From Synergistaceae bacterium (GTDB lineage: Bacteria > Synergistota > Synergistia > Synergistales > Aminobacteriaceae), in NCBI GenBank assembly GCA_017405525.1, contig JAFRAH010000043.1:1-34829 (forward strand): a stretch of 34,829 nt of DNA, written 5' to 3'. Position 1 is the first letter of the stretch. The number at the start of each line of letters is the position of its first letter. A program made the translations under genes and the position numbers. The notes beneath the pieces are model-generated. The model had not been told where the DNA came from, made no database searches, and worked only from the letters and a program-made list of their open reading frames with translations. Shown in pieces: positions 2,868 through 30,318 of this stretch.

Positions 2868-3934
2868 TTATGAGAGCCTGCCGCCTGACAGCGTCCTGAA
2901 TGCCTTTTGCCTGAGCAGCTCAATCACTGTGCAGGAGATATACACGATCATGATTACGGCGATTGAGTAGGGTATAAGGTGAGGGCTCTCCTGAAACGAT
3001 GCGTTGCGGAAGACATTCACCCAAAGGAACGGCCTGACGTATCGGTTATCGTGAATGAGGTATACCCCGAAAGTCGCGGAGGCTATGACGTTGATGATTT
3101 TGCTGCTGGGTATGTTGAGGCTCCTGAAACCGATAACGAGGCAGAGAACCGCAAGGACAGTGAACGGCCTCATCATTCCGAGAAAGTAGGAGGACATTTT
3201 AGCGAAGTATGGGTGTCTCGTTCCGGCAATGTCGAGAGCGATAACAGACAGGAAATTAACGCCGACAAATGCTAGGCCGTAGAGAATATATTTCCTGCTC
3301 CCGTAGTCCTCAGCATGAAGCCTCAAGTATCCTGCGAGGCAGTAAAGGCACATGAAGTTTATTGTTGCGTTTGCCCCGAAATCCGAATTTGTCAGCACTG
3401 GAATTATGCACCAGTAAAAAAATATGGCCTTCAAGAATTTTAGGTAGTCCTCACGGCTTAAACTGTGAAGCAGCCTGTTCATGTATGGGTGAACTAAGTA
3501 CATGACAAAATAGGTGCTCGCAAACCACCATTGAGATTTTGTTACCGGCATGAGTATCTTTAACGCTTGCTTTAGTGAGAAGACCTCAAGCCCTGAGACA
3601 GTGAAGAGGCAGTAAATCACCACAGAGTAGAAGAACATCCTAAACCATAGGTTGAACAGCCTGCGGTAATTCAGCCCCGGCGACTTGACGAGAAAATACC
3701 CCGACAACATCACGAATATATCATTGCCGAGACTTCCTCCCATGAAGATGAACTGCTGCCATAACCTGTTGAGTGTGATTGTGTTTGCTGGAAAGTCAAA
3801 CCCTCCATGAACTGCGAAATGATGAGCTACAATAACAAGCATTCCTGCAACTCTCAGCAATTCTAACGCCGAATTTCGGGCAATATGCTGGTCTGGTCTG
3901 GTCTGGTCTGGTCAATTATGATGCCGTTTTTCAT
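2868..3934 (-). CDS. Acyltransferase-3 family membrane protein, phase-variable, out of frame as sequenced
   Basis: About 330-350 residues with roughly ten hydrophobic helices. The family start motif lies around 3860-3881 (ARNSALELLRVAGM), with the helix-1 HH shortly after. Such proteins move acyl groups, usually acetyl, onto sugars of surface glycans. The best start is ATG at 3934, with AGGTGAGG upstream, 26 bases after the M20 stop. From it, five GACCA units (3889-3913) throw the frame off, giving a 23-residue dead peptide. With 4 or 7 units the ATG joins the conserved motif. In the present frame a TGA at 3912-3914 blocks upstream starts. The first usable start is then TTG at 3860, which has no ribosome site and cuts off the conserved motif. 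I infer slipped-strand phase variation, currently OFF. Confidence 0.85.
3889..3913 (-). repeat. Pentanucleotide tandem repeat (GACCA)5, contingency locus
   Basis: Five perfect GACCA units on the minus strand lie inside the 5' coding end of the acyltransferase gene. A 5-base unit changes the frame on each gain or loss, so it acts as a translational switch. Confidence 0.9.
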
Positions 3935-3960
3935 TTTGTCAAGCCTCACCTTGCGTGATA

Positions 3961-5190
3961 TTATTTCCCGGCCATCATCAACGCAAAGACTTTTGCATTG
4001 TTCACGAGGTAGCAGATCTCCGTATACTCGTCCGGCTGATGAGCAACCCCTCCGCATTCCTGAGACCACACAACCGCAGGTATACCCTTCCGCCTGAAGA
4101 TTGCCGCGAAAGTCCCGCCGCCAACTCCCCCTGTATGAGGCTCAATCCCCATCACTGCCTTGACGCTCCCGATGAGCAGCCTGCACACCTCAGCATCAGG
4201 GCTGGTTACTGGTGCGGCATCAGTCCTGTCTATGTCGAGGTCAATTTTCGCCCCCGTCCTGCGCTCAACGTCAAGACGTACACTCTCCACAACGTCAAAC
4301 GCATCATCAAGCGACACTTCGGGCAACACTCGGCAGTCAAACTCGAACCTCTCACGGCCAGGAATGATATTCGTTGCCGGGACGTTCGCAAATCTCCGGG
4401 TTGGCTCAAACGTCGAGAATGGCGGGTCAAACGCGTCGTTCCTCTGTGTGAATGTCCGGTGAAGTGCCTCGTCTACCTCATAGGCCAGAATGTTGGCGGC
4501 ACGGCAGGCGTTTATTCCCCTGTGAGGAAGTGAGGCGTGAACTTGCTTGCCTGTTACGGTGAATGAGAGCTTCCACATTGCTTTTTCGGCTATCTCGATG
4601 AAGTCGCCCGCATCATTCCCGCTGTCAGGAACTACTACCAAGTCATCAGGACGGAATATATCCCCACGTTCAAGCAACGGCTCAAGTCCGTAATGGCTGC
4701 CCATCTCCTCATCAGCCACGAACGCAAGCAGCACCGTGTATTCAGGCTTAACCCCTGCGTCCTGAAGTGCTTTCAGTGCGAACAGTGAGGAGACCAAGCA
4801 GGTACCGTTGTCGCTGACTCCCCGGCCGTAAATCCTTGAGCCCCTGACTTCCGGGCTGAACGGGTCAAGTGTCCAGAGTGTCCTGTCGCCTTCGGGGACT
4901 ACGTCAATGTGTGAGAGAATGCAGAGCCTCTGAGCCTTCTTGCCGGGGTACTCAAGGAACAGTGAGGGCCTCCTGCCTGATGGGGCTTTCTCGTCGTCAA
5001 CGTGCTCAATCCTTATTGTGATGTCTTTCAGTCCGAGGTCATCGATAAGTTTCGCGAGCTCCAGAATTTTTGTGTCCTCACCTGTCCCGCCATTGTGGGG
5101 GGATATTGCCGGTATCCTGCATAAGCGTATGAGTGCCTCAGTCATTGAGCCTTTGAGGGTTTCCACTGAGGTTAGTATTTCGTCAAGCAA
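3961..5190 (-). CDS. M20-family metallopeptidase (ArgE/DapE/carboxypeptidase-like)
   Basis: A 409-residue zinc-dependent amidohydrolase. The metal and catalytic motifs are in order: SHIDVVPEGD (H94, D96), GRGVSDNGT (D127), ADEEMGS (E161-E162), an aspartate in VVPDSGND, and a late histidine in GVAHQPDEY. The dimerisation domain lies between about 190 and 300. Members hydrolyse dipeptides or N-acyl amino acids; the exact substrate is not evident. The start is TTG at 5190 with AGGAGG 11 bases upstream; a nearby ATG meets an immediate stop. It sits in a leftward operon between a glycosyltransferase and the phase-variable acyltransferase. It may therefore be a passenger, or may act on an amide-linked sugar substituent, which is speculation. 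Confidence 0.88.
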   Translation of the reverse strand: MLDEILTSVETLKGSMTEALIRLCRIPAISPHNGGTGEDTKILELAKLIDDLGLKDITIRIEHVDDEKAPSGRRPSLFLEYPGKKAQRLCILSHIDVVPEGDRTLWTLDPFSPEVRGSRIYGRGVSDNGTCLVSSLFALKALQDAGVKPEYTVLLAFVADEEMGSHYGLEPLLERGDIFRPDDLVVVPDSGNDAGDFIEIAEKAMWKLSFTVTGKQVHASLPHRGINACRAANILAYEVDEALHRTFTQRNDAFDPPFSTFEPTRRFANVPATNIIPGRERFEFDCRVLPEVSLDDAFDVVESVRLDVERRTGAKIDLDIDRTDAAPVTSPDAEVCRLLIGSVKAVMGIEPHTGGVGGGTFAAIFRRKGIPAVVWSQECGGVAHQPDEYTEICYLVNNAKVFALMMAGK

Positions 5191-18249: not shown

Positions 18250-19757
18250 TTAAAGGCGAGAATATTTTATGCGCTCCCTGTCATACTCAATCATCTTCAT
18301 CACGTAGATGTAAAGGAAATATGTGTTTGTCCATGCATATGGATCAGAAAGAGAAGTTCCAGCTATTGCACCCACAAATCCAGAAAGTAATAAACAAAAT
18401 AGAGCAAGAGCAAGTTCATTATCGCCTCTGTGCATGTATAAACGTTTCATCATCATGTAGCACATTCGCAGAAGAAAAAATGTGCCTATCAGGCCGTAAC
18501 GCGTCATCATCATCCCATAAGAAATGTCAGGTGTATTTGCTTGGTCTATATACCCTGTCTCCTTGTCCCTAAGGCCGAACCTGAAATCATAGTTTCTGTG
18601 CCAGAACTTAGCATCACTTGTCATAGGCAGCCCCATCAACAGTTCAACCGGGCTTGTTATCAGGTATGCTCCTCTTTCAATGACCCAGCCTATACGGTAC
18701 ATGAGTGTCAAGCCATTTGATACATCGCTTCTTGCTTGGTTGAAGTCCCCTCTCATCAATGCAGATATGTCATTGGCCGTAGAATTATTACCCTTTGCTA
18801 AACGCTCACTGAACGCGTTCCCAAAAACTAGGTATATCACGAGAAGTACAGCAGCAGCTTTAAACATCTTTGTGAATGAACCCTTAAAGAACATCACTAA
18901 CAGTATACATAGCAATGACGTTGCAATAGCAGTTCTGTATAGTGTGCAAAACCGACCTGCAAGAAATACGATTGGGGATATGTACCTTAACTGTTTAGGT
19001 ACAAGTTTCTTGCAGAATATGCTTATTGGAATCAAGACTGTCATGAAAGCAGGAGTAAACAAAAAACGATATACCCCTCCAATGGCTTCTACTCCTCCTT
19101 CTTCTTCTTGGAACTTTGACATCGGAAGTATCGCTTGACCTGTGAAGCATTGGATGAGATACAGAATTGAAGCTGCGAAAGTAAGTATAAATATTATCCT
19201 GAACAACTTATCACATTCATGTTTTTTTAAGGGAACGAATACGAAAATGCTCATTAGCATCATGAATTTTATCCCCTCATTAATCACAGATGCAAATGAA
19301 AACTCTACCCCCCCCCCCATACAATGCAGGTAAACAACATTGACACAACAAAAAACATGGACAACACAAACACAGAACGCAGAATTTTGTCGTTTCGTAC
19401 GCCACGTATAATGTTATTGACGTTGAAAATGATGAAGATGAATAAAGCAACGAAAGGCACAACTCTTGTCTTCCAAGGGGAAAGAAACCCAAAACCCTTC
19501 GTACACAATGCCAGAAACAAAAAGGCTGAATACATATGCCTTTTCTGGATTGTGAAAAAGGCAAGCATTACGAGCATAAGAACATAAATTAAAATAAAAA
19601 ATGCATTCATACTTAATACCACAAAGCTATTTGTTATATTATTGAGTAAAATTATGAAATTATTATAACAAAGTAAAATGAAAATAGGTATATATAACAA
19701 ACGTAGCATTTTATCTTCGTTGCTGACTGTTATATCGTTCATATCAGTCATACCCAT
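18250..19757 (-). CDS. Polysaccharide polymerase/O-antigen ligase-like membrane protein, phase-variable, frameshifted at a G11 tract
   Basis: About 500 residues when both halves are joined, with roughly ten or more membrane helices. A larger loop region (RDKETGYIDQANTPDISYGM) before the last helices is in the style of Wzy/O-antigen-ligase proteins, which join oligosaccharide units. The 5' half (19757 to the tract) ends at TAG 19305-19307 just after the G tract; the 3' half continues in another frame from the tract to 18250. With 9 or 12 G residues the halves fuse; 11 are present. The best start is ATG at 19757, with GGGAGGAG 10 bases upstream; an ATG at 19709 is another option. DNA here is clearly more AT-rich than its neighbours, suggesting transfer. 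The start overlaps cobS on the other strand. Confidence 0.7.
19308..19318 (-). repeat. Homopolymer G11 tract inside the polymerase gene, contingency locus
   Basis: Eleven consecutive G residues on the minus strand (C on the plus strand). The upstream frame reads TGG GGG GGG GGG TAG; the downstream protein continues in a different frame. Elsewhere in the window the longest G or C runs I noticed, apart from the other two tracts, are six or seven. Confidence 0.9.
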
Positions 19758-22042: not shown

Positions 22043-22043
22043 T

Positions 22044-22152
22044 GATTATAGAGACTCCTCCCTGATTATAGAGACTCCTCCCTGATTATAGAGACTCCTC
22101 CCTGATTATAGAGACTCCTCCCTGATTATAGAGACTCCTCCCTGATTATAGA
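22044..22152 (-). repeat. 20-bp tandem repeat (five full copies plus a part) carrying promoter and ribosome-site sequences
   Basis: The plus-strand unit is GATTATAGAGACTCCTCCCT, repeated five times without error (22044-22143) and ending in a nine-base partial copy. On the minus strand each unit holds TATAAT and AGGGAGGAG. The last unit supplies the ankyrin gene's Shine-Dalgarno, and the others stack further -10 boxes and ribosome sites 20 bases apart. Confidence 0.92.
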
Positions 22153-26779: not shown

Positions 26780-27922
26780 TTAAGGCACTGTGAGATGAAA
26801 TCCCTGTACTTCCTGCCAGTTTCTCTGTAGGTGAAGAAATACCTCCTGTTCTCCCTGAGTGTTCCTGTTATGCTTTCGGGGTCAAAGGTCTTTTTGCCGC
26901 CTGACTGAAGCTGAAGCATCCTTCCCGAATAAAAATCCAAGCCTCCGCAGTCCCGGATGAAACCGATGATTTTTCCTGTTGATGGGTCAGTGTAGTCAAG
27001 TATGAAGTTGTTGCCGTTAAGGATTGTCTGGAAGAAAACTGAATGATACCTCATGCCGATACATGCCGACGCGTTCATGTAGCAGCTGTAAAGCTCGTGA
27101 AGGTTCTGCGGCCGGTGAACTACCTTATACCCCCCCCCCCGTATGCATATTTACGTCTAGGACAAGCCTTGCGAGATAGTACCTGTCATCCCCGCCGACA
27201 AAGAATGTGTGCATAGGTACGAGCCTGACATCCCCATATTCCCGCGAGAGGCAGAACACCAAGCTCCTCAAGTCGTCATCAGAGACAGCAATATTCTTCC
27301 CGTACTGTCCGCCGGGGTTGCCCCTGAAGTTCACAGCACAGTATTCCGGGCCATTGTATGACTCACTGACAGCCTCCTTGTAGTTCCACGCAGATATTGC
27401 CGCAGGGTCTCCGAGTACCTGAAAGCTGAACCCGTCCCCGTAAAGTTCACGTGCTGTATTCCTTGAGGTCTCATCCCTGAAGGAGATTGCAGAGGACAGG
27501 ACTAATATGTCCCGAACAACCCCTATATGTCTCCTGCTGTTCAGAGGGCCTATTCCGCAGCCCATAACTACGGCAGGAATACCGAGCTTTTCTGCAAGCC
27601 TGAAACAACGCCTGACTATGTAGAGCTCCTCAAGATCCATCAGCGGGCCTCCTCCCATTATCACAAGATCAGAAGAGGCTATATTTTCCTCAAGCTCCTG
27701 CCTGTCCTTAACGCTGAAAATTTCGAGCCTTGCTTTTGGTGCTGACCTCCTGAAAATTTCGCGCTCCTCGAAAAATGTCCGCTCAGTGTAGAATGGGAAG
27801 AGACTTCCTACCTTCACCGTCAAGTTCCCGTCAAGACCATCAAGAACGCTCAATATTCCGTCAAGTATCGCACGGTCTCCCATCGTCTCAGTGCCATACC
27901 ACCCTGTTATGCTCACTCTCAT
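26776..27922 (-). CDS. Polysaccharide pyruvyl transferase family protein, phase-variable, frameshifted at a G11 tract
   Basis: About 382 residues if joined, the normal family size. The N-terminal half has ITGWYGTETMGDRAILDGI and VIMGGGPLMD, with FRDETSRNTARELYG in the middle. The C-terminal half has QNLHELYSCYMNASACIGMR followed by YHSVFFQTILNGNNFILDY, the family's signature. The family puts pyruvate ketals on sugars of surface polymers. From ATG 27922 (GGAGG 9 bases upstream) translation reaches the G tract and stops at TAA 27125-27127; the C-terminal half is one frame off. Ten or 13 G residues would join them; 11 are present. It lies between the radical SAM gene and the initiating transferase gene. 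Confidence 0.88.
27130..27140 (-). repeat. Homopolymer G11 tract inside the pyruvyl-transferase gene, contingency locus
   Basis: Eleven G residues on the minus strand interrupt the coding sequence after ATG CAT AC. The in-frame reading gives Gly-Gly-Gly-Val-stop; removal of one G gives Gly-Gly-Gly-Tyr-Lys-Val and the rest of the enzyme. Confidence 0.9.
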
Positions 27923-29054: not shown

Positions 29055-30318
29055 TTAGTGTGTTCCTGAAATTTCCCGGTAAATCCCCATCAATGTGGCG
29101 AATATCTCTTCACGGTCATGTGTCCTTGATGCGTGGGATATTTCGTTGCGGGAGAATGTCCCGGCAAGCTCGTCATCACTGAATATTTTGTCCACATAGT
29201 ACGGGATCATGTAGGGCTCATCGGCAGGGTAGGTGAAGCCTTCAGTGCCGTGGGTCATCATGTTCTTCACGCCCCCAACGTCCGATGAGATGCAGGGAAC
29301 GCCAAGAATCATTGCCTCGCCGAGTGAGTTCGGGGAGTTCTCGATTGTCGACGGCAAAATGAACACGTGGGACTTCCTGAACCTCTCGCACATTCTTTCC
29401 TCGTCAAGGTAGCCCGTGAACGTGATGTAGTTCTCCAGGTTGTTCTTCCTGATTATGTCCGTGAGGTATTTCCTGTAGCTGGTCTGCTTGATGTGCTGGA
29501 TTAACGTTTTGGGTATCGGGCTCGTTCCTGTGGTGTAGACGTGAACGTCCGGGTATCTCCTGATGATTTCGGGTAGTGCCTGAAGGAAAATGTGGAACCC
29601 CTTGATTGGGTATGATGACTGGCTGATGAAGATTGAGTGCCTCTCGCATGACTGGGCTGACCATTTCGGGCTCTCGTAGAACGTATCCCTGAGCATCTCG
29701 TTGCAGTGGAAGTACCTAACTCCGGGGTTGATGGACTTCACGCAGGCCTCATCCCAGTCTGTCCTGCCGGTTATGTTTCCTGCCCTCCTGATTGCTTCGG
29801 CCTCAGAAATTCCGCGCCGCTGAAAATCCTTCTGTCCTCTTCTTATCCCCCCCCCCCCTTAGTACATCTCTGAAGGTCTTTGTGCAGAGAGTGCGTATTG
29901 GCACATTCAATGAATAGTGGTATGAATAAAATTGTACCAGCCCCTGAATGTGAATGACTACCCTTCCCAAGCATCCCAGTTCCTCGCAGGCCCTCACCAT
30001 CGCCAAGGTGTGGGAGTGTTCAGTGCCGAATATGTGAACTACATCAGGCTTGAACGACCTCAATATTCCCGTGAACTCGTCGTACTGTTTTTGCTCGACC
30101 CTGTCTATTCGTTTCTGGCTGTAGCTCCGAAACGTGATATTGCCATCCGTGAACGTGAGCTCCGAATTTTGCGGGAAGAGATACATCACCTCAAGCCCGG
30201 AAGTCTTCTTCATCCTCCAGCAGATTCCGTTGATCCAGCTCTCAGGTTTGCCGTGCTTCAGTCCGAGCTTCTCCTTGACCTCCTCCATAATGCCATTACA
30301 GAGCAGCAATACTCTCAT
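29055..30318 (-). CDS. Family-4 glycosyltransferase (GT-B fold), phase-variable, frameshifted at a G12 tract
   Basis: About 421 residues if joined. The N-terminal half (from ATG 30318, with GAGGAGGT upstream) has the acceptor-binding GT-B features (PDVVHIFGTEHSHTLAMVRA, GRVVIHIQGL). The second half carries GRTDWDEACVKSINPGVRYF, FISQSSYPIKGFHIFL and the donor-site EX7E motif IENSPNSLGEAMILG followed by PCISSDVGGV. Such enzymes transfer a sugar from a nucleotide donor with retention. The first half runs through the G tract to a TGA at 29803-29805; the second continues in another frame. Eleven or 14 G residues would fuse them; 12 are present. It is first in the leftward glycan operon. Confidence 0.9.
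29847..29858 (-). repeat. Homopolymer G12 tract inside the family-4 glycosyltransferase gene, contingency locus
   Basis: Twelve G residues on the minus strand lie in the coding sequence after CTA A. Loss of one G joins the frame to ATA AGA AGA and 35 codons later to the conserved second domain. Confidence 0.9.

Follow-up and report, generated by a model that had tools for sequence, protein, structure and literature searches.

A GACCA repeat ahead of an acyltransferase-3 gene is very probably a phase switch and one copy of a genus-wide glycan-gene cassette in Synergistaceae

Introduction

Among the closest described systems is oafA of Haemophilus influenzae, a phase-variable acyltransferase-3 O-acetyltransferase gene with a tetranucleotide repeat (PMC9558356, PMC6479036; the repeat basis is cited in PMC9558356). 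We analyzed a 34,829-nucleotide stretch of a Synergistaceae genome (contig JAFRAH010000043.1, hereafter the window), in which five GACCA units precede an acyltransferase-3 frame. The locus resembles oafA as a probably phase-variable acyltransferase-3 gene that, by analogy, would modify a surface saccharide. However, the repeat is a tetramer in H. influenzae and a pentamer here, the phylum is different, and the start region and array are common to dozens of unrelated genes. The CTCTT coding repeats of Neisseria opa are also pentanucleotide tracts within an ORF, with multiple loci per genome and frame-based ON/OFF states (PMC11475388), but opa genes are copies of one gene family, whereas here only the switch is common and unrelated genes follow it. 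The tracts of NTHi hmw1A/hmw2A and other promoter tracts are alike in their heptamer units and in an array beside promoter-like boxes (PMC11475388), although there the level is tuned in the promoter region, whereas here the array lies within what would be a translated ORF. Stop-start coupling and repeat-driven frame changes are both known classes among the clusters of the GeneTack survey (PMC3711429); here, in contrast, the two would be combined, with the array determining if a leader ORF extends to the stop-start overlap. Among the papers searched, none links Synergistota with phase variation, and among those listed for GACCA repeats and phase variation none appears, judged by title and abstract, to concern such a switch. 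Switching of this kind appears to be undescribed so far in this mostly rumen genus. We here propose that the GACCA tract is, with high probability, a slipped-strand phase switch and one copy of a glycan-gene cassette that occurs genus-wide.

Results

The elements of the locus are collected in Table 1. The window array consists of 5-nt units between the start codon and the domain, a unit length not divisible by three. Translation from ATG 3934 gives MKNGIIIDQTRPDQTSILPEIRR and then a stop, and the original prediction that this ATG, with its ribosome site, reads through five GACCA units into a 23-residue dead end agrees with sequence and translation. It had further placed the RNSALELLR motif in another frame that is blocked by TGA at 3912-3914, as the sequence confirms, and its coordinates were all correct. 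By frame arithmetic, the ATG is in frame with the domain at 4 and 7 units, as predicted, and out of frame at 2, 3, 5, 6, 8 or 9; the window assembly, with 5 units, is in the OFF state.

Table 1 Elements of the acyltransferase locus in the window
Element	Position	Strand	Basis or remark
Shine-Dalgarno-like GGTGAGG	3950-3944	minus	9 nt 5' of ATG 3934; sequence
TTGACA, -35-like	3942-3937	minus	between GGTGAGG and ATG 3934
ATG, start of switch ORF	3934-3932	minus	frame relative to array as in class I cassettes
CATAAT, -10-like	3920-3915	minus	TTGACA + 16 nt; kept at DNA level in related cassettes
TGA closing the acyltransferase frame upstream	3914-3912	minus	sequence
GACCA x5, all perfect, variable tract	3913-3889	minus	sequence
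OFF-state ORF, 23 residues + stop	3863..3934	minus	translation from ATG
Acyltransferase-3 (PF01757) frame, intact	2868..3911	minus	without start codon before TTG 3860
TTG, proposed alternative start	3858..3860	minus	without Shine-Dalgarno upstream
M20-family peptidase, just upstream of array	3961..5190	minus	flank of slot with variable cargo

The RNSALELLR frame is free of stops from 3911 down to the stop at 2870-2868 on the minus strand, which is 347 codons counted from the first residue past the TGA and 340 codons after the array. It matches Pfam Acyl_transf_3 with 98.1 bits (gathering cut-off 31) over profile positions 2-323 of 326, and has no match in NCBIfam or among PDB sequences (solved structures). 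The first membrane helix contains R-X10-H, read by eye in the translated frame as R20 and H31, a motif that is essential in acyltransferase-3 proteins (PMC9833829). That the enzyme carries out O-acetylation is a guess from its protein family. A paralogue of the window's acyltransferase-3 gene elsewhere in this genome has no array and one internal TAG (L019, C6:14224-15252).

A start at TTG 3860 would lose RNSALE and retain R-X10-H, and because this essential motif is kept, such a start is catalytically possible. It would make the acyltransferase constitutive and the array irrelevant. We consider this extremely improbable, given that no Shine-Dalgarno sequence is found in the 20 bases upstream of the TTG, the conserved RNS[AS]xE segment would be lost, and two of the orthologues inspected (G003 and G004) carry a codon other than TTG there.

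As a slipped-strand switch, the locus would start translation at ATG 3934 and continue through the GACCA array, so that one 5-nt unit gained or lost would shift the frame and acyltransferase-3 protein would be produced only at 4, 7, 10 and so on units. Slippage in the population, translation and acyl transfer to a surface sugar are predicted steps of this model, and the benefit would presumably be bet-hedging against phages, immunity or protists. Four to five units are short for a hypermutable tract, and switching may therefore be slow here.

The array is not an isolated feature of the window. Perfect pentamer arrays of at least three copies occur only four times in a 292-kb sample of the window's own genome, and all four are GACCA; besides the window acyltransferase (OFF) they precede an unassigned gene (C25, OFF), a GT61 glycosyltransferase (C32, ON) and a GT2 glycosyltransferase (C35, ON). 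Across the Synergistaceae genus, the tract TTGACCAGACCAGACC was found at 33 sites, spread over 15 of the 43 genomes, while the reversed pattern gave 0 sites. Each species is represented by a single genome, usually a MAG, and unit numbers are compared between species. The tract is absent from the 58 other genera sampled in the order. A chance array is ruled out by 33 sites versus 0 for the reversed pattern together with the exclusively GACCA pentamers in 292 kb, and the genus survey rules out a chance feature of one pseudogene. At seven of the 33 sites (L022, L024, L026, L027, L039, L047 and L052), the array lies at a contig end and the assembly stops within it; these arrays may be longer or of mixed length.

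A fuller cassette pattern matched 24 stretches in GTDB release 220, and 23 of these bear the labels Synergistaceae, Synergistales or Fretibacterium sp. Of the 23, 20 have names that refer to goat forestomach, goat abomasum, red deer or reindeer, and the 3 Fretibacterium records name no source. The link to the ruminant gut comes from these record names of genus members, where named records are mostly ruminant-gut MAGs, and not from the window's own genome. The remaining match is a 4-kb contig labelled Eubacterium from roe deer rumen (L065). Its GACCA array was set aside as unrelated or misbinned, with a different upstream layout, no clear -10-like box and other ORFs that bear no sign of the Synergistaceae genus. 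No cassette was found in the viral contigs searched.

All 33 GACCA sites have the same layout of TTGAC(A), 16 or 17 nt, a TATAAT-like box and the array, even though TTGAC was no search requirement when the sites were found. A purine-rich Shine-Dalgarno stretch lies directly 5' of TTGAC at most of the 33 sites, and the position of this stretch (GAAAGGA/GGAG) corresponds to that of GGTGAGG in the window. In 30 of the 33 cassettes, the boxes enclose an ATG or GTG whose frame stays open through the junction; in the other three (L051, L053 and L054) the sole candidate start is the TTG of TTGACA. Most class I cassettes have a single open frame, which is the frame used; a TAA within the -10-like box and a junction TGA shut their other frames. 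In the fusion type, the large CDSs lack any well-placed start codon ahead of the conserved domain. The array-less paralogues L019 and L020 begin at the equivalent ATG, which supports this ATG as the start. A hairpin of TTGACA or the Shine-Dalgarno sequence with TTGTC 3' of the array was also considered and discarded, as the pairing, compared by eye, is not conserved across loci.

The TTGACA-N16/17-TATAAT element is close to the sigma70 consensus and straddles the start codon, which raises an unlikely alternative in which the array is a transcriptional element, with transcription starting in the array and unit number tuning the transcript level, much like the NTHi hmw heptamers and comparable promoter tracts. 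The near-consensus boxes with fixed spacing are present in 33/33 GACCA cassettes and in most others, they are kept at the DNA level across cassettes with differing reading frames, and at L050 a terminator-like hairpin directly upstream leaves little room for any other promoter. However, transcripts starting in the array, 3' of the start codon, would have no start codon, and fusion-type cargo has none of its own. Furthermore, a second box, TGnTATAAT, lies further upstream in many cassettes, 5/15 GTCAA arrays have no TTGACA, and start codons in open frames would be needless for a purely transcriptional element. Shared descent alone is not likely to account for the conservation of TTGACA and TATAAT, given that spacers diverge and the ATG shifts while the boxes stay put. 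The promoter-like element inside the cassette is superfluous to the translational switch model and unexplained by it.

The switch model extends to a cassette of Shine-Dalgarno sequence, TTGACA, start codon, TATAAT-like box and pentamer or heptamer array that would head many unrelated genes, with most cargo fused in frame through the array. The pattern GGNN-TTGACA-NAATG has 64 matches in the genus versus 5 when reversed; many are ordinary coding sequence and several are cassettes with other units. The equivalent place is taken by the pentamers GTCAA, GACAA and GACAC or by the heptamers GGAGTCA, ATCGAAC, GACCGCA, GCAACCA, GGCTTAC, ATCGGTC and GAGTCAG. No unit length found is a multiple of three, in a scan that covered units of 4, 5, 7 and 8 nt only. 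One methyltransferase gene (L087 / L141, own genome C35, about 24,260) shows the Shine-Dalgarno-TTGACA-ATG-TATAAT layout with two heptamer copies only and may be a cassette that is young or worn down.

In a second form, the frame of an array-bearing leader ORF would control translational coupling to an overlapping gene start. At 12 loci, chosen in part for stop-start proximity itself, the array lies inside a leader ORF of which one frame stops at most 4 nt from the start codon of the gene. These loci span about 8 gene families, including GT11, LicD, FkbM methyltransferase and core-2 branching enzyme. Individual cases are weak because dinucleotide-shuffled leaders reproduce the proximity in 9 to 53% per leader; taken jointly, a chance origin of the coupled loci is unlikely. 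No stop-start coupling was seen at three GTCAA loci before genes for secreted-looking proteins (L124, L142 and L155). At L142 (own genome C12:82197), the GTCAA array has a Shine-Dalgarno sequence and ATG and no TTGACA, the downstream gene has a signal-peptide-like start, and the leader ORF falls short of it.

Pfam families among the cargo are AT3, GT2, GT4, GT11, GT14, GT61, polysaccharide pyruvyl transferase, PIG-L and LicD as well as Sulfatase, Bac_transf (sugar transferase), NTP_transferase, methyltransferases, DUF4422 and DUF6492, and several cargos match no Pfam family. Most cargo, and nearly all of it that can be recognized, is expected to be enzymes acting on surface glycans. The M20 peptidase of the window type also adjoins a GACCA array in G003, with GT2 as cargo, and in G034, with GT11. 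L167 and L168 share 93% identity in the 1,470 nt leading to the cassette and are unrelated beyond it. Different cargo per species in an equivalent slot could be ordinary gene turnover at a variable site; that the array acts as a crossover point for cargo exchange is what we infer. Tentatively, and with considerable doubt, the whole could form an exchangeable system in which the cassette is a common socket for glycan genes, the array is the swap junction and the promoter-like element has its own function, for example by driving transcription into the array and thereby raising its instability.

Among fusion cassettes with a scorable start (n = 42), 11 are ON and 31 OFF (binomial p 0.41 versus 1/3). 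For all scored cassettes, a set that includes two leader-type loci added by hand and leaves out loci scored 'other' and OFF, 16/55 are ON (about 29%; p 0.57 versus 1/3). The ON fraction is compatible with random phase; as it is slightly under one third, some OFF loci could be decaying.

A fixed OFF state, with the acyltransferase a pseudogene and the five units a static frameshift, is very unlikely. The window frame is indeed OFF, as in most sampled cassettes, and G003 is OFF with only two units. However, the 340 codons after the array are free of other lesions, and large CDSs are intact behind OFF frames in general. In addition, the acyltransferase dN/dS is 0.13 to 0.17 in OFF-OFF pairs (window-G003, window-G004 and G003-G004), 0.12 to 0.29 in all pairs with usable dS and 0.13-0.20 for the window against orthologues where dS is unsaturated, values that are rough because dS is near saturation. 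Naturally ON relatives with other unit numbers exist, and an equivalent design stands ahead of many unrelated genes.

Acyltransferase orthologues have 2, 5, 5, 7 and 11 GACCA units; the G006 gene has degenerate units and is locked in frame, and the G008 homologue has six GGAGTCA units where the others have GACCA. L110 (8 units, ON) and L156 (6 units, OFF) are 96% identical over 237 nt 3' of the array.

The slipped-strand switch that had been predicted from the window alone is thus supported as the best explanation by comparative evidence across the genus. The reading is much stronger because one cassette precedes dozens of unrelated genes. It gains further because start codons sit in junction-open frames in 30/33 cassettes, most cargo has no start of its own, acyltransferase unit numbers vary between related species (2 to 11) and the total ON fraction is near one third.

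Discussion

Phase switching of this kind would give commensals of another phylum, most of them from the ruminant gut, a large and modular repertoire of surface glycans. The repertoire combines a standard cassette that uses several repeat units with a leader-coupled variant and with slots whose cargo varies from species to species. The spread of switch cassettes becomes testable, as does the question of why a herbivore-gut commensal would hedge its surface, with phage, protists and the host as possible reasons. For annotation, many glycan genes of the genus may be truncated or mis-called.

The window holds other repeats. C runs (G on the coding strand) of 11 at 19308-19318, 11 at 27130-27140 and 12 at 29847-29858 coincide with frame splits of minus-strand glycan-gene ORFs, named by eye as O-antigen-ligase-like, pyruvyl-transferase-like and glycosyltransferase, and these genes are candidates for further phase-variable genes. 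Between ORFs at 22043-22152, the 20-bp unit TGATTATAGAGACTCCTCCC is present in 5.5 perfect copies.
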